Origin: Polytrichum commune
Taxonomy: Eukaryota > Streptophyta > Polytrichopsida > Polytrichales > Polytrichaceae
Assembly (NCBI GenBank): GCA_950295325.1
Contig: OX485803.1
Span: forward strand, 57,117,554-57,181,553
Direction: 5' to 3'
DNA: 64,000 bases
The position numbers were made by a program, and so were the translations under genes. Shown one piece after another: positions 448 through 57,381 of this stretch. The number at the start of each line of letters is the position of its first letter. The stretch's first letter is position 1. The notes beneath the pieces were generated by a model. That model did not search any database, was not told the DNA's origin, and worked only from the letters and a program-made list of their open reading frames with translations.

Positions 448-2543
448 TGTATTAAGAAAGCCATATCCAAATATAGAAAACTATATGAAATAAGCCCCCA
501 AAAATTAAATAGAAGAGTATTCAAAAACTTAGAGACTCCGCCACTAGATTGTATCACAGACCGAAATAATAATATACTCACTAACCCAGAAGACATAGCA
601 AATGAAATACATATACAACAATCTATCAGCAATAGACCCACAGTTCCCACATGTTACTACTTACCAGACCACCCCCTATAATGTACGTGTGCAATAAGAC
701 AATACCCATGGCACGACTTTGAAGGACTAGTTCTGGACAAACGTGGTGACCCGCACATAGCCCTATACACGTACTTTGACCTAGAAACATACAACCTATG
801 CCTTAAAAACCTAGCAAACAACAAAGCCCCAAGCCCCGATAAGATACCCAACTCCATAATCAAGAACATGCCCCAAAAATTCCAACACATATTATTCTTA
901 TTTTTTACACATTGCTACAAACACAAACAAATCCCAACATTCTGGAAAATTAGCCTTACAATATTACTGTACAAAAAAAAAGATCCATCTTTACTATCCA
1001 ACCATAGATCTATAGCACTTGCAAACACTATATACAAATTTTTTACTAGCACACTAACATCAATACTCTCGTCATATGGAGCAAAATACCAAATCCTAGG
1101 AGACAACCAATAAGGATTTAGAGCAGAAAGATGTATGTCAAGACAAATACAAACACTAATAGCCGCATTAAAAGACGCCCAATTCACCAACCAAGATATT
1201 TATCTTCTTTACATTGACTTCAAAAATGCATTTGGATCAATCGACCATGCCCAACTATTAGCCATCATGAAAGACTTAGGATACCCAGAAGACGCAGTCA
1301 AACTAATCGGAAACATATATTCACACTCCAACACTATATTCACCGGAGAATACTTTGGCCAAACAAAAGAAATATCAATTCAAAGAGGTACTATACAAGG
1401 GAACACCCTAAGCCCATACCTCTTTATTATATTCCTAGAACCACTACTAAGGTGACTACAAAAAGGCAAGTATGGATACACCTTTGGAACATCTAATTTC
1501 ACAATCAGCTCTACAGCATACGCATATGATCTAGCCACCATCACCAACAAACTCACATCAATATAACCACAACTAAACAAAATAGATAAATATTGTGAAT
1601 GGGCAGGTATGGACCTTGGAATATCAAAATGTGCAGTCACAAGATGCCCTAACAAATCCAAATTGAATCAAATAACATTCAAAAGACAAATACAAACCGC
1701 CAACATTACATACCGAAACCAGAGTATACCAGTGCTACACCAAAACGAACCATACGTATACCTAGGCATTCACCTAGTCTCTTCCCTCAAATGGAAGATA
1801 CAAACACACATCACAACCACTAAGTTAATAAGCCAATGTAGCCAATTAGCGAACTGCCCAATAACAATCAAACAAAAAATTAGCATGGTAGATATAATAA
1901 TCAGAGCTGGAATCACATACAGTTTTTATGCAGTTCCATACTCACTGCCCGGAATCATAAAATTAGATAAACAAATCATAGCAATGCAAAAGAAAATATG
2001 CGGACTCCCAAATTCACATCAAATATGGTCACTCAATTACCCCATGAGCTGTTTGGAATAGAAGCATTTTCACTAAAAAATACCTACCTTAGATGTATTG
2101 GGGAACAACTTAAAGATGCACTAAATGACAAAGGTAAACTTGGAACAATCTACAGAGGGCTTACACACTATATACTTGCCAAACATGAAGGAGCAAAAAA
2201 TATACCTAGAATCAAACACCACGATTGTAATCGATCACCCACCACTAGAACAATATACCTTATAAAAATAACAGGTGGAACCCACCTCAGAAGCCATTTA
2301 GAAACATTCTCTCTTGAAGCAACACCACTCGAAAAAGAATGGCACAAACTATCCACAACACCACCTCCACAAAAAATCTCCAATCAAAACCTAAAACACA
2401 TACACAAACTACTCTTAGAGAACATATATGACATAAAACAACTCACTTTAAGAGATGGCACACACATGATGCCCTATGCTGAATATATAAACTACTACAA
2501 AAAACCAACACATATGCTAAAACAAACACTAAAAATAGCATAA
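448..2543 (+). pseudogene. Reverse transcriptase domain of the LINE (degenerate)
   Basis: RT motif A is intact as YIDFKNAFGSID near 1213. Motif B is RGTIQGNTLSPYLF near 1385, followed by the EPLLR segment. The catalytic box that should read YADD reads YAYD near 1520, so the first aspartate is replaced by tyrosine. In-frame stops lie at 1111 (before GFR), at 1453 (after EPLLR, where Trp is usual) and at 1564. A frame change near 2000-2060 leads into the thumb-like region that runs to 2543. The enzyme would be inactive. The stop at 1453 fits TGG to TGA and that at 1564 fits CAA to TAA, both compatible with decay of methylated DNA. Confidence 0.85.
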
Positions 2544-3216
2544 CAACTATTTTGCCACCCAGGATGCAATGAAAATTGCCTAGAGTCATGCCAAAACCAT
2601 TACCCACCATGCACATTAAAACAAGAATACATTATAGCAAGACACAACATAGAACCTGTAAACAATGACACCCACACACATCCACCATTCCCAATACACC
2701 CGCCCGCACCAACACACATAATAAACAACCCAACAAAATACCCTATACACTCAATAATAGACCACTATATAGTACCAACCAAAGATAAACATAAAATCAT
2801 AAAAAAAACAATACACATATCTATGCCAATGGGTACTACCCAATGATACAACTTATAACAAAAAACTCACGCAAAGAGAATTATTCCCTTATAACATCCC
2901 AAGAGTCATACAACATAATACAAACATAATACTCACATACTTCACTAAGAAAAAACACACAATATACGAAAATATAATACGAGGAAACGATTTCTTTACC
3001 CAAAACAAAGACCAAAGACACATATCCCCACCCCTAAACATTCCCCTTGTAAATTTATCTACACAAGAATGCAACCCGGAAAAAGATATCAACACTAACA
3101 CAAATAAAATTCAAGTATAAGGTGAAAGCGCCCACATATACGACGAAACAGGAAAACACCTTATAACCATTCCACGAGATATTAGACTCACATGGCTATG
3201 GAATCAATACAACCAA

Positions 3217-4603
3217 ATGCTACATCAACCACACGACCTAATACCTCCCACCCAAACATTCGAAATAGAAATAACCTGGCTATATCAACAATACAAACAC
3301 AGAATCCCAAAGAACGACCCACTAAAAAACTCACACCACACCTTACCCAAAGTATTACTAGACTACATTACAATGTCCTTTAAGATTACCCATTCCTACT
3401 TCTCCTCACCAGTCACATGCTCCACTCAACTAACGAAATTCTGCTCACCATTTCCCAGAGATAAAATATTTGGATTCATAGGTACTGCATTCTCACATAA
3501 ATGGCACGGAATAGGTTATGCCCACCCTCACAATGAAAGAGAAGCCCAAGAAGCCATCCACTGGGCTAGGTTAGCAGCTAAACACAACCCAAACTCCATC
3601 ACAATACTCACCATCCTAGACATAAATTGGTATCAAAACCCCACCCCATACATAGGCCCCTTCCCAGACACATATGTAATCACCCACATACCAGCAGACA
3701 CCACTAAATACGAGGAACCAACAAAACCATCAGAACTCGGTGAAACACGAATAGAAACACTTGTTATAAGAATCCTATGCGTACACCACCAACTCAATAA
3801 CATAGGTACATCCGAACAAATGAACACCATAAAAAACATATGCAATAACCTTGGCATAACACTCATAACCACGCAAATAGCCCCTCCTACCCCACAAAAT
3901 ATAGAAGTTAACATAAGCAAAAAATGGAATGCCCTTACAAACTTAAGCCCAAACATACACTATCACAACACAACCCCACCAATCCCAAACTACGAAAATG
4001 AAACACCCCTTAAATTCCCACCCCAATATTGCTTCTACACGGACGGATCCTTCAACCCACCGAAAAAAGTAGGAGATACTTGGCTAAGGGAAGAAGCTGG
4101 TTATGGTATATACAATCAAGAAAAAAATATCAAACTTGCAATGAGGCTACCAGGCCTACAAAATATTTTTAGAGCGGAATTAATGGCCATACACCACGCC
4201 CTTACAATAATAAACAATGACTTCTCAAATGAACCCGCCCATATCTTCACAGATTGTCTCAATGGCCTATATGTGATAAAAAAACCAAATAAAACACCCC
4301 ACACTACATAACAACCACCCGGATAAAACCATCTTAGAAGAAATTGTTAAGTTCCTTGTCCACAGAATGCAACCCACAACACTATATAAAGTCAGAGCAC
4401 ATGCAAACATTAAGGGAAATGAAGAAGCCGACGCACTCGCCAAAGAAGGAACAACTATGGAACACCTCAACGCCTCCCAACCACATGAATTTGCCCACTC
4501 GACCCCATACTACTACCAAAGAGATGAATGGCCATCAATGGACTCAACCCCGGACAAAGGACCCATCAGATTCCTTGAAAAAACACCTTATAAAATACGA
4601 TAA
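3217..4603 (+). pseudogene. RNase H domain of the LINE (frameshifted)
   Basis: A 364-codon frame ends at 4311. It holds the RNase H start YCFYTDGSFNPP near 4029, the second acidic box FRAELMAIHHAL near 4171 and a third, IFTDCLNGLYV, near 4243. The last part of the domain, KVRAHANIKGNEEADALAK, continues in another frame from 4388. A frameshift therefore separates the catalytic core from its C-terminal helix. RNase H placed after the RT is known in several plant LINE lineages. The stretch 2544-3216 between RT and RNase H has no long frame. Confidence 0.8.
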
Positions 4604-4762
4604 AAATATAAACCTAGAATTAATCCCTACACTATATCCCAACATAGATAAATGGATAGCCAATGAAACAATAGATAATGAATTATCAAATAAATTTTGG
4701 ACAAACAAAAACATTACGGATGCTAAAAAACATGCCCTCTAAAACTAAGACATGGCCAATAC

Positions 4763-5484
4763 ATGGGGAACGCCAGAAAACAATTATTCTTCGGTAGGGA
4801 AGCCTTCCCATCAATCACATGCCCCATATGTAACTCCCTAGACCCAGACACATGGCTACACGTACTCCTAAAGTGTAAACAACACCACATACATGCCCTC
4901 AGAACCAAAAGACATAATAAGGCAGTGTGGAAATTAAGAAAACTAATAGTGGCATCAAAAAAATCAAGATGTTTTGTTCTCATGAATGCATGCACATATA
5001 ACAATAACCCACCAGACAACACAGTCCCCCCATGGCTACTACCTTGCATGTGCCGCCAACAAAGATGTCACTGCAATGCCAGATTCAAACCCGACCTCCT
5101 ATGTGTGAAAGGACTGCCATACCAATCCCCACCACTAGCATAACCAAACGAGAACCTCACAATACAATTCATAGAATTCACATATTGCAATGATAGAATA
5201 CCAGATGATACTATAATTAGGAAAACAGAAAAATATAAACCATTAATAGACAACATACTCAATAGAGGCTGGAAGATAGACCCACTATTAGTCATTACGG
5301 TTGGTGCTAGGGCAGCCACACACATCCCCTCTATGAAGAATATTGAAGGAATATTTAAAATCCCTAAGGTAAATATCAAACACACATTTGAGGAAATTAA
5401 CGTTATTGCCATACAATATGCTATGTCCATAATCCTACACAAAGGAAGAATAGAAAACAACGAACCACTACCAACAGACGCATA
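4763..5484 (+). pseudogene. Cys-rich and C-terminal domain of the LINE ORF2
   Basis: The frame from 4763 includes a zinc-binding-like box CPICNSLDPDTWLHVLLKC near 4818, then a Cys-rich patch near 5041-5075 and ends at 5143. The homologous frame appears to continue beyond that stop to about 5484 with FIEFTYCNDR, GARAATHIPSMK and IQYAMSIILHK. This arrangement marks the 3' end of the protein. The stop at 5141 and those upstream show the copy is dead. Confidence 0.7.
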
Positions 5485-30499: not shown

Positions 30500-31153
30500 C
30501 CTTGCACCACTGACCTCTATATTTTCGTATCCTCCTCAACTTGCTGCCAAATGTCTGCGCAAAATGATGACCAGATGATCATCGCTTCTATGAATCAGTC
30601 TGACAACTTGGGGCACTTAACCAACCTCTCAAACCATGAAGCACGAGGGAAGCGTCACACACATGACAAACTTACATTGTTATACTAGTGAAGGCAATGA
30701 TTTCAGAAGCTGAGCGGATGCTTGAATTCGAGGTAAAACCCAGGTAAATCCGAACTTCTCATCATTAAGTCTCAAGCATCTAACTTTCAGTCAAGCACCG
30801 ATCGATGATGAGGATTAACCCCTTCCCTCTGACGTTGAACTTAAAGGTAATTCAACCACCGGCAGTGTTTTTAGCAGAATCTACGTTGTGAGCGGAGGAA
30901 CCTAACACAGCTGATGTGTGATACAGTTTTGGAAAATCTTCAGAGATTTTCGCAGATGTTTTTAAGTTCGAGATGGCACTTTAAGATGCACCCAAATTGT
31001 AACTTATATCTGAGTTTCATTCGGCGTGCATGCATTTGAAAAATTGACGGCAATATGGATGGAATTATTATCCCAGGAGCAAGAAAACTAATTCAGGAAA
31101 ATATTTGCTATTGAAAGTGACGATGTTCCCTCCGCGGATCCGATGTGCAGTAA
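30500..31153. other. Intergenic between PsuG and tRNA-Pro
   Basis: Holds the 5' flank of the PsuG gene. No recognised regulatory site or gene. Confidence 0.5.
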
Positions 31154-31236
31154 GGGCACTTGGTCTAGAGGTATGATTCTCGCTTCGGGTCCACCGAGCC
31201 TGCGAGAGGTCGCGAGTTCGATTCTCGCAGTGCCCC
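31154..31236 (+). tRNA. tRNA-Pro(CGG) with 11-nt intron, copy 1
   Basis: Acceptor stem GGGCACT / AGTGCCC, anticodon stem CTCGC / GCGAG and T-arm GCGAG-TTCGATT-CTCGC all pair. The anticodon CGG is at 31186-31188. After G37 an extra TCCACCGAGCC (31190-31200) sits at the canonical intron site before base 38. Its CCG can pair with the anticodon, as the splicing endonuclease of eukaryotes expects. The mature length is 72 nt. A T5 run at 31288-31292 may end Pol III transcription. A C-run follows the gene. Confidence 0.93.
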
Positions 31237-32409
31237 CCCCCCCCGCCTCTCACCTTCATTCTTGTCAATGTATTCAGAATCTTTGTCTTTTTCTTTGTCT
31301 TTTGTGCACATAACATTATCTGTGTCCGAAAAGAACTTCGAGCATCATCCATGTCACCCTGGACCTATTTGCTGGAGAGTCTAATGACAGATCACTAAGT
31401 TCTCGTGCACTATTCTTGTAATGTATTTATTACAATCTTTCCTTGCAATATCACAGATAAGATTAAACCAACCCTTTAGGCAATTTAGCCTACTTTTCAT
31501 AGGCCGCATGGATAAGCGGTATGCAAAAATTCACTTGGCAATCGACTTAGACAAGATAGAAGCAAAAATAGTATAAATTGCACCATTTGTACTCCTATTT
31601 TATTTGTAATCACCCATGCCAAGGTACCTAAATCTCTCTAGATCACACTATTTCCATTGAAAACGGTCCTAGCACCATCCCAACACAAGTCCAAAAGCAT
31701 CCTTGTTTTCCACCCAAAACCAAACCCGATATGTCTTTCCAAATGAAGGTCCAAGGACCATAACATTATTCACCTAGTATTAGTTGTTCATTCTAATAAT
31801 TTTCATTGATAATGCTTCACTCGAGTTTACCATGTCCAATCTTATGGTAAGAGAATAACCATGGTATAGTTTCCGAATACTATCTGACACATTCCCGGCC
31901 CCACCCTCCATACTCAGTTGGATAATGTTCTGACCATCAGTGAGCTTGCACAAGAATAAGGTGCCATGATGAGAAGGAAAATTGTGTCATAAACTAACCT
32001 AGGACCCCTTTCACCTGGGCAGAGGAGGTTATCAAGCTCGCTATGGGATGGGTCGTCTTAATACACCTATCTATCACACGGGTGAAATTTGGGAAGAGGA
32101 TGTGATTCCCACAAGTCCCAGTTGGATGTGATGAGGTGTCACGAGTGTAAGACTCTCCGGGCACTTCTGCCCAGAAGGCCATAACATTTCCCATATGAAG
32201 GGTCATGATTGGTGCATGGCATGTTCATTTCTTCCAATAAGTGGTTGATAGGAAGGAAGGAAGGAAGGAAGGGTTGTTTAGGCCCTGAATTCAGCTTCAC
32301 CCTAAGCCATTCTTGATGCCAGCTCAGCATGTTTCCCCTCAACCGAAGAGGCTACACTAGTTTATATCTTATTAAATAATTCTCAGGTTGGGAACATGTC
32401 TTCCAAGTA
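31237..32409. other. Spacer between the two tRNA-Pro genes
   Basis: No gene seen. A (GGAA)n run lies near 32251-32271. Homology between the two tRNA copies does not clearly extend into the flanks. Confidence 0.5.
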
Positions 32410-32492
32410 GGGCACTTGGTCTAGGGGTATGATTCTCGCTTCGGGTCTTCCGAACTTGCGAGAGGTCGCGAGTTCGATTCTCGCAGTGCCCC
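32410..32492 (+). tRNA. tRNA-Pro(CGG) with 11-nt intron, copy 2
   Basis: The mature part is almost identical to the copy 1256 bp upstream (A to G in the D-loop). The intron at 32446-32456 differs in sequence (TCTTCCGAACT) but has the same length and position, and keeps CCG opposite the anticodon CGG at 32442-32444. TTTT at 32504-32507 is a good Pol III stop. Confidence 0.94.
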
Positions 32493-32734
32493 AGCTACTT
32501 GTGTTTTGTGGACTTTCGACACTGTTTTTGTAGGCCCTTACATATCTTTTGGAAACTGTGCTGTGCTGAGCTGGTTTTAGGTTTCATTTGTAGGCAACCT
32601 AAAATCAACACCCACATCAGATGTTCGAGAGGTGTACATCCTCGTAATCAACAGGCGCCTATTGTTCAAGAAGAGGTTTTAGGTCAGGTGTTGGTTCTGG
32701 TTAGTGGAACTGCTTCCTCTGATTTCTTCGTTTC

Positions 32735-44240: not shown

Positions 44241-44872
44241 AACGGTGTAGTAGAACCAGTTTATAATAACCCAACACCACTCTTTCTATATGATAATTTA
44301 AGCATTAAGAAAACTTGAGTAATTGTGTGGGAATTCTCAAAAACTCCGGGGTTTGGGACTTAAACCTATGGTTTCGATCTGCTTTACTTTACGAATAAGT
44401 ATAATGAGTGATGAGTCCGGCAACAAGTGAGTCATGACCGCTCTTGCAAGTATGATTGACCGACCACACCTTGGAGCCACGAAAGTGCGGCCGAATGCAT
44501 TGGGATGGGTTCACGGATTCCCCTTGCAAAGCTACTCCTCAGGACTCCTGAAAGCGCCCTAGCCCAGGAGATAAGTCAGCAAAGGGGAGCGTGAGCACCA
44601 CAAGCCCCAGAGCAGGCGCAACCTGGCGCCCGGGCCAGTGCCAACTAGCGGCCTATGTGCGGATGAGGCTCCCTTCGTTGCCATTGGCTGGCAGCGGCGT
44701 CCCCTCCCGTCCCCACTGTCGCTAACTCCCCCCTCTCACTTAACTACGCGCGCCTCGCATACACAGTAGCCAGCCAGCACCGCACTCTCGCACTTCCCAC
44801 CCACCCGCAAGCTCTCATCAGCCCAGCAGAGCAGAGTCTAGTCCCGATCCGCGTCCCAGCAGCTAGCCAGCC

Positions 44873-45307
44873 ATGGCCGCCGTAGCAGCAGCCACCAGCG
44901 TGGTGCCCGCGACGGCTGTCGCCAGCATTAGCGCCAGGTCCACCGCCGCGAGCGTGAGGCCGGCGTCCCTGTCCATGGCATTCGGGCTCAAGCCCGCCAT
45001 GGGCCGCGTCACCTGCACGGCGTACACCGTGACTCTCAAGACCCCCGAGGGCGTCAAGACCATCTCCGTTGACGACGACAAGTACATCCTGGACGTAGCT
45101 GAAGCTGAGGGTATGGATCTGCCTTACTCGTGCCGCTCCGGCTCATGCTCCAGCTGCGCTGGAATCATCGAGAGCGGCAGCGTGGACCAGAGCGACGGCA
45201 ACTTCTTGGATGACGACCAGTTGGAAAGGAACTTCGTCCTCACTTGCGTCGCTTACCCCACCTCCGACTGCACCATCGCAACCCACAAGGAGGAGGATTT
45301 GGAATAG
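44873..45307 (+). CDS. Chloroplast [2Fe-2S] ferredoxin
   Basis: An intronless 144-aa precursor. Residues 1 to about 49 are a plastid transit peptide rich in Ala, Ser and Val with few acidic residues. The mature part starts near [11 protein letters not shown]. It has the plant-type cluster CRSGSCSSC (Cys87, Cys92, Cys95) and Cys125 in FVLTC, with the usual 29-residue gap, and ends THKEEDLE. The protein sits in the stroma and passes electrons from photosystem I to FNR and other enzymes. The start ATG at 44873 has a good context (CAGCCATGG). The upstream 350 bp and the gene are much richer in G+C than the surroundings, as expected of a CpG-island-like, strongly used gene. The long acidic D-D-D-Q-L-E-R-N stretch before FVLTC differs slightly from common sequences. 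Several ferredoxin types exist; the leaf type is most likely. Confidence 0.95.
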
Positions 45308-48029: not shown

Positions 48030-48872
48030 CTACTCAGAACCTCTATCCTCCTCTGCGGTGGGGGCAGAATCTAGCGGATCGTCCAGCTTCTTCTTAATAG
48101 GCTGCCCTTCTTCACCTTTTCTCGAATCCTCGTTTGAGCCGCCCAGATTGAGAGCTAACTGAATAGACAGTAATGTGAGCCCAATCGAGTTCGCGGCAAA
48201 CACAAAAGTGGCCAAGTAACACAACCCTGTCACAATGGTGCGCACCGTGATGGTCAAGTTCCGAATAGAGTAATTTGTACTCACCACTTTGTTCACGAAC
48301 CCTCCTTCGACAGTCACAGTGAACTTGTAAAGTACCAAAGCTATCCCCCCAGCGACGACAGCACCAAAAAGTGTCTGGAACGCATCTGGTGGCGGTGTCT
48401 TGACCTCAGGGGTTTTCTGGAGCAATGCGATGGCAGACTTCTTGGCGTCCTCCTTGACACTTACTTTCTCTTCCCCGGTGGACCGAAACCTATTCTCTTT
48501 CGCACGCCGCGACCGCCTTCGGATGGACCGGAAGAGAAGCACCGTGATCAACCCCGTGAGCACAATGCTTGCGGCTGTTTGCAGAGGTGTCGTCTCTGGA
48601 ATCGCAAACGGGTCGGTCAGCTCGGGAGGTAGCTCGATGGGCCCATCTGTGAACTCCTCGGAGAGAGAATAGAGGCTCCCTGCGAATTGCGAAGGGATGT
48701 CACTCAGAGCACGCAATTCACTAGAATGCGACGTGAGCTCGCGGCGGGGCAGGCGCAGCGAGAGGCTACCGAGAGGAGAGAGGCCGAGCGAGGAGGGCCT
48801 GCTAGGAGGAGTGAAGCATGGACTAGGGTTTGTTGCGGTGAAGCAGAAGGCGGATGCCATCGCCATGGCCAT
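48030..48872 (-). CDS. DUF3082-like plastid membrane protein
   Basis: A single-exon gene of 280 aa from the first ATG of a run of in-frame ATGs (MAMAMASAFCF). A longer reading would need a TTG start. The N-terminus is a likely plastid transit peptide, rich in Ser, Pro, Leu and Arg. A first membrane helix follows in TAASIVLTGLITVLLF, next to a basic stretch (RSIRRRSRRAK). Two more helices lie in LFGAVVAGGIALVLYKF and GLCYLATFVFAANSIGLTLL. Between them come FVNKVVSTNYSIRNLTITVR and the end IQLALNLG. This matches, as I recall it, the DUF3082 family of cyanobacteria and plastids, whose function is unknown. The acidic, Lys-rich C-terminal tail is probably disordered. Confidence 0.75.
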   Translation of the reverse strand: MAMAMASAFCFTATNPSPCFTPPSRPSSLGLSPLGSLSLRLPRRELTSHSSELRALSDIPSQFAGSLYSLSEEFTDGPIELPPELTDPFAIPETTPLQTAASIVLTGLITVLLFRSIRRRSRRAKENRFRSTGEEKVSVKEDAKKSAIALLQKTPEVKTPPPDAFQTLFGAVVAGGIALVLYKFTVTVEGGFVNKVVSTNYSIRNLTITVRTIVTGLCYLATFVFAANSIGLTLLSIQLALNLGGSNEDSRKGEEGQPIKKKLDDPLDSAPTAEEDRGSE

Positions 48873-49179
48873 GGCCGCAGAAGCCTTCCTCCAGGCCAAG
48901 AGTCGCTCAGGCCGCGAGGAAGCTTGAAAGCTTGAAAGTTTGCAGGACCACGTGTCGCCCTCCCAACCCCTCGGAAGTGCCAGGTGGGACCGTTTCCTGA
49001 TAAGGTTTCTTCACTCTGGGACTCACACCAAATGGTTACTAGCTACACCCATCCATAACATTAGCCGATAAAAGACGCACTAGAGGCTCAATGTATGACA
49101 TACGACATACATGTATACACACTTTCCACAAGCCTCACCAATGACTTGAAACCATTTAACTTTATAGGGGGTTTTGAAA

Positions 49180-57309: not shown

Positions 57310-57381
57310 GCGTCTGTAGTCCAACGGTTAGGATAATTGCCTTCCAAGCAATAGACCCGGGTTCGACTCCCGGCAGACGCA
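57310..57381 (+). tRNA. tRNA-Gly(TCC)
   Basis: Acceptor stem GCGTCTG / CAGACGC, anticodon stem and loop TTGCC-TTCCAAG-CAA with anticodon TCC, and T-arm CCGGG-TTCGACT-CCCGG are intact. Length is 72 nt without intron. TTTT at 57388-57391 can stop Pol III. Confidence 0.97.

Follow-up and report, generated by a model that had tools for sequence, protein, structure and literature searches.

The question raised by this locus is whether two tRNA-like segments of the window (the whole stretch of 64,000 nucleotides that was analyzed) are functional nuclear tRNA-Pro(CGG) genes interrupted by spliceable introns, or copies that carry a duplicated insertion and make no tRNA. The features concerned are listed below in window positions.

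31154..31236, + strand: predicted tRNA-Pro(CGG) gene 1, 83 nt including the intron, mature body of 72 nt (ARAGORN with introns; cmscan RF00005, 50.0 bits)
31190..31200, + strand: predicted intron of gene 1, TCCACCGAGCC, 11 nt, between bases 37 and 38; bases 32-36 all paired (5 of 5) with intron positions −3 to −7, 3-nt bulge
32404..32406, + strand: CAA motif of the kind usual at plant tRNA genes, with its first base 6 nt upstream of gene 2
32410..32492, + strand: predicted tRNA-Pro(CGG) gene 2, 83 nt including the intron, mature body of 72 nt (ARAGORN with introns; cmscan RF00005, 48.4 bits)
32446..32456, + strand: predicted intron of gene 2, TCTTCCGAACT, 11 nt, between bases 37 and 38; geometry like that of gene 1, but the 32:−3 pair is U-A, not U-G
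32504..32507, + strand: possible Pol III termination signal for gene 2 (T-run, with the first T4 at +12)

Gene calls, scores, and flanking signals

With introns allowed, ARAGORN reports tRNA-Pro (cgg) i(37,11) at both loci. The covariance scores of 50.0 and 48.4 bits were obtained with permissive filters on 31100-32560 and lie above the cut-off of 29 bits; in comparison, one intronless Pro(TGG) gene has 60.4 bits, and two intronless Pro(CGG) genes, L008 and L009, have 52.8 and 56.1 bits, respectively. These results bear out the preliminary description, according to which both copies have intact tRNA arms plus 11 extra nucleotides at 37/38. In genes 1 and 2 cmscan also flags one non-standard D-stem pair, which is not decay of these copies, since the same bases occur in seven Pro(TGG) genes. 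The precise position of the cut is ambiguous by one base because intron base 1 and base 38 are both T, and 37/38 is the canonical choice for the cut site. Both introns contain a CCG able to pair with the anticodon, and their length of 11 nt is inside the range of 6-133 nt that PMC4090602 gives for eukaryotic tRNA introns at the canonical site.

The calls depend on the settings used. Without introns, ARAGORN reports the same genes (31154-31238 and 32410-32492) as tRNA-Ser(GCT). This identity was rejected and has a practically negligible probability, as ARAGORN gives Pro(cgg) once introns are allowed and 70 of the 72 body bases are as in the Pro(TGG) genes. Neither Pro gene was reported by the Rfam default-filter scan of the 64-kb window, in which the only listing is an ordinary intronless tRNA-Gly(TCC) at 57310-57381 (+ strand, 73 bits). 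Default tool settings can hide intron-bearing tRNA genes of this sort.

As for the flanking signals, gene 2 has the CAA motif and the candidate terminator given above. In gene 1, the first 15 nt upstream lack a CAA, and the earliest T-run (T5) comes about 50 nt downstream; a T-run is present within 45 nt in all 7 TGG genes and in the 15 intact-looking AGG genes that were read. The internal A and B boxes would presumably fall in the conserved body of both genes, judging by their consensus.

Other parts of the window contain a plant-type ferredoxin gene (Fer2) at 44867-45307 (+), with matches to both chloroplast and cyanobacterial-type chains that do not settle the group to which the host belongs, and a gene for a DUF3082 protein at 48030-49010 (−). 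Retroelement-like frames occupy 682-5143 (+), including an ORF at 3121-4311 that matches RNase H and, below threshold, PCIF1_WW.

Bodies, introns, and predicted splice geometry

A single D-loop position out of 72 separates the mature bodies of genes 1 and 2, as against 4 of 11 positions in the introns (Fisher two-sided p = 8e-4), in agreement with the earlier remark that the introns have diverged while the bodies remain nearly identical. The intron differences are located at intron positions 3 and 4 (loop), 9 (pairing kept), and 11 (bulge). Length (11 nt), site (37/38), and the anticodon-pairing CCG are retained in both copies, as also pointed out before. Both bodies match those of the seven Pro(TGG) genes, which are identical to each other, at 70 of 72 bases, the differences being confined to body positions 16 and 33, that is, one D-loop base and the first anticodon base.

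The two genes have the same orientation and are 1,256 nt apart, which might suggest that the likeness of the bodies comes from recent tandem duplication or gene conversion rather than from selection on each copy. Shared flanks, a mark of recent tandem duplication, were not detected: in the repeat search the similarity between genes 1 and 2 ends at 84 nt, and their 300-nt flanks give alignment scores of 13.5 (upstream) and 20.0 (downstream), which do not exceed the 95% points of shuffled sequences (20.0 and 22.0, respectively). A recent copy of the whole unit would not leave the exons alone alike, with 4 of 11 intron positions changed. Gene conversion that affected the exons on either side of an 11-nt intron but spared the intron itself is a conceivable but strained alternative, and both versions have to face the 70/72 identity of the bodies with seven dispersed TGG genes. 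This origin of the likeness is thus regarded as very improbable.

According to unconstrained minimum-energy folding, both 83-nt precursors form the same extended anticodon arm, in which bases 32-36 are paired with intron positions −3 to −7. The predicted helix of 5 bp is accompanied by a 5-nt loop that holds the 5' site and a 3-nt bulge that holds the 3' site, and the 32:−3 pair is U-G in gene 1 and U-A in gene 2. The D arm is open in the minimum-energy folds of the precursors, the mature bodies, and the TGG gene alike. A random 11-mer (30% A, 30% T, 20% G, and 20% C) would permit all five pairs with a probability of 0.012. If four changes are placed at random in either intron, however, all five pairs survive in about 16% of cases, and the distribution of the observed changes is therefore suggestive but not significant by itself. 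Near-identical bodies, diverged introns, and retained splice geometry together support selection for a spliceable tRNA, the explanation put forward in the preliminary description.

Census of tRNA-Pro genes and comparison with other isotypes

With a gene of the window and one TGG and one AGG gene as queries, DNA searches returned 40 distinct places, 37 of which were read (including the two window genes; three short matches of 34-44 nt were left out), and the counts given here are lower bounds. With introns allowed, ARAGORN calls tRNA-Pro at 27 of the 37 places (7 TGG, 4 CGG, and 16 AGG, among which L034 looks degenerate) and makes no call at the remaining 10. Introns are present in 2 of the 27 called genes, both of them in the window. 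The genome-wide count of intron-bearing Pro(CGG) genes, a figure that the preliminary description had left to be established, is therefore 2 of 4 on these lower-bound counts (ARAGORN with introns), and a relaxed CGG pattern search returned the same four CGG genes.

The possibility that genes 1 and 2 are the sole CGG genes was rejected, as the other two, L008 and L009, are intronless. The preliminary description had named such genes, in combination with tRNA-seq showing only unspliced product or none, as what would speak against its reading; the intronless genes of that combination do exist. In L009, a T-to-C change in the anticodon stem is compensated by A to G in the opposite strand of the stem, a further C-to-T change turns a pair into G-U, and a T11 run is found at +38; L009 could therefore well be active. 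In L008, two C-to-T changes also produce G-U pairs, the nearest 15 nt upstream contain no CAA, and the 61 nt of downstream flank that were read contain no T-run. A D-loop base tells both from genes 1 and 2: it is T in L008 and L009 but A or G in the window pair. Since intronless Pro(CGG) genes exist, genes 1 and 2 may be dispensable.

These counts also bear on the reading of genes 1 and 2 as pseudogenes with a duplicated 11-nt insertion, from which no tRNA would be made. Pro-derived relics are common in this genome (10 of 37 places without a tRNA call), the intronless CGG genes could suffice, and the flanking signals of gene 1 are weak. The relics, however, give no tRNA call, whereas genes 1 and 2 do, and neither of the two bodies has decayed, although their flanks no longer align. 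In both copies, moreover, the insertion is situated at 37/38 with a predicted pairing ready for splicing. Pseudogenes are therefore considered unlikely. The best explanation, to which we assign a probability of about 85%, is that genes 1 and 2 form a diverged tandem pair of functional nuclear tRNA-Pro(CGG) genes, in which each member carries an 11-nt canonical eukaryotic tRNA intron.

A separate observation concerns L013 (G000:C7:31667082-31667118), a tRNA-Pro 5' half that is 97% identical to the TGG gene over query bases 1-37 and ends in the anticodon loop, followed by unrelated sequence. Four further Pro-derived relics are located on the same contig at 31.41-31.66 Mb.

The intron survey covered Pro, Tyr, Met, and Leu(CAA); a genome search with RF00005 scored 63 of 24,132 first-look candidates, and the window genes are not among the matches listed. 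All 12 tRNA-Tyr pattern matches (introns of 10-11 nt) and all 10 elongator tRNA-Met matches (10-12 nt) are intron-bearing, with the cut site placed from general tRNA structure. Bases 32-34 can pair with intron positions −3 to −5 in 22 of these 22 introns, as judged by position and not by folding. All five pairs of bases 32-36 are possible in 8 of 12 Tyr introns, 0 of 10 Met introns, and both Pro introns. The introns of genes 1 and 2 thus resemble those of plant nuclear tRNA-Tyr(GUA) and elongator tRNA-Met(CAU) in site (37/38), in length (10-12 nt in the 22 matches here), and in a base 32 that can pair with intron position −3, but are situated in tRNA-Pro(CGG). They look at least as canonical as the accepted Tyr and Met introns. 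Leu(CAA) introns, sought as a parallel, were not found, all 10 pattern matches being intronless.

As for the splicing endonuclease family (PF01974), the genome yields one partial match (E 1.1e-9) that covers positions 3-54 of 85 (52/85) and has a TGA inside. The presence of the enzyme is implied by the introns in 22 of 22 Tyr and Met matches.

Expected processing and standing among plant tRNA introns

That the two precursors are transcribed, cut, and ligated is inferred by analogy with the known pathway and with the Tyr and Met precursors, which can form the same pairing position by position. RNA polymerase III would produce a precursor in which the intron CCGA(G/A) pairs with bases 32-36, leaving the 5' splice site in the 5-nt loop and the 3' splice site in the 3-nt bulge. 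The splicing endonuclease would then cleave at both sites, and the plant tRNA ligase (5'-phosphate pathway, as in PMC4090602) would join the halves. The expected product is a CCG-reading tRNA-Pro whose body measures 72 nt.

A more specific role for the intron can also be considered. It might be kept as a license for modification of the CGG wobble base that takes place only in the precursor, such as m5C34 by an NSUN2/Trm4-type enzyme, so that two pools of Pro(CGG) would exist (intron-derived modified and intronless unmodified); the intron may have arisen in this lineage together with the change of a Pro(TGG) anticodon to CGG. According to PMC11408192, C34 of fission-yeast tRNA-Pro(CGG) is a target of Trm4a, Trm4b has inefficient, intron-dependent C34 activity in vitro, and Leu(CAA) is an intron-dependent C34 target in yeast and human. 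The fission-yeast tRNA is the same isoacceptor in a fungal system, and the account of C34 in PMC11408192 does not state outright that its precursor has an intron. The NSUN family has 7 matches in the present genome, all partial, which do not indicate which enzyme acts on tRNA. Because Leu(CAA) is intronless in 10 of 10 matches, it lends no support to intron-dependent m5C34, and the idea appears quite unlikely.

Comparison with published surveys depends on the host, which looks like a bryophyte, probably a moss; the angiosperm frame in which the introns had originally been placed is thus probably wrong. The genome comprises 407.8 Mb, nearly all of it in seven contigs of 42-78 Mb, and seven chromosomes would fit haircap mosses. 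Contig C8 (146,561 bases) has ycf2-, psbD-, rpoC1-, rpoC2-, rps2-, and atpI-like frames in the 20 kb that were read, and appears to be the plastome. The three best solved-structure matches of one chlorophyll-binding protein are 9vfj_2 (with no single stretch passing), 8htu_U, and 7xqp_a; we take 8htu and 7xqp to be Physcomitrium patens structures and several of the lower entries to be from flowering plants. The region G000:C5:1751760-1846160 contains 14 equally scoring chlorophyll a/b-binding matches, the six L037-L042 among them, distributed over ~95 kb on both strands.

Outside plants, an intron is also carried by yeast tRNA-Pro(UGG). According to Table 2 of PMC11700998, introns outside Met and Tyr are rare in 69 angiosperm genomes but are tabulated for most isotypes, Pro included, and tRNA-Pro introns are listed for P. 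virgatum alone (2 genes). That case shares with the present one an intron in a plant nuclear tRNA-Pro gene and differs in its host, an angiosperm there and a bryophyte-like plant here. The statement that angiosperm introns are essentially limited to Tyr and Met was therefore too strong. In 50 plant species including algae, PMC12652284 reports 1826 intron-bearing tRNA genes that represent all 20 amino acids, with a peak of intron length at 12 bp; 86.87% of these genes are Met or Tyr, and calling the present genes unusual for a land plant was thus broadly right. For Physcomitrella, PMC9126412 gives 19 to 23 intron-bearing tRNAs, depending on the database. A literature search for bryophyte tRNA-Pro introns found no report among the papers listed, with no claim of absence from print. 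Furthermore, PMC4090602 notes that splicing has not been confirmed for every predicted tRNA intron, and that yeast and Xenopus extracts did not require the anticodon loop and the intron of artificial substrates to pair.

Genes 1 and 2 are a real, well-formed, and uncommon case that calls for no new mechanism. Their interest is modest, since the design is a well-established one for tRNA introns, and rare plant tRNA-Pro introns are already on record. A diverged pair that keeps body, site, length, and splice geometry is nevertheless better evidence for a real intron than a single prediction. That the same genome has Pro(CGG) genes with and without introns also offers a natural comparison for the function of tRNA introns.
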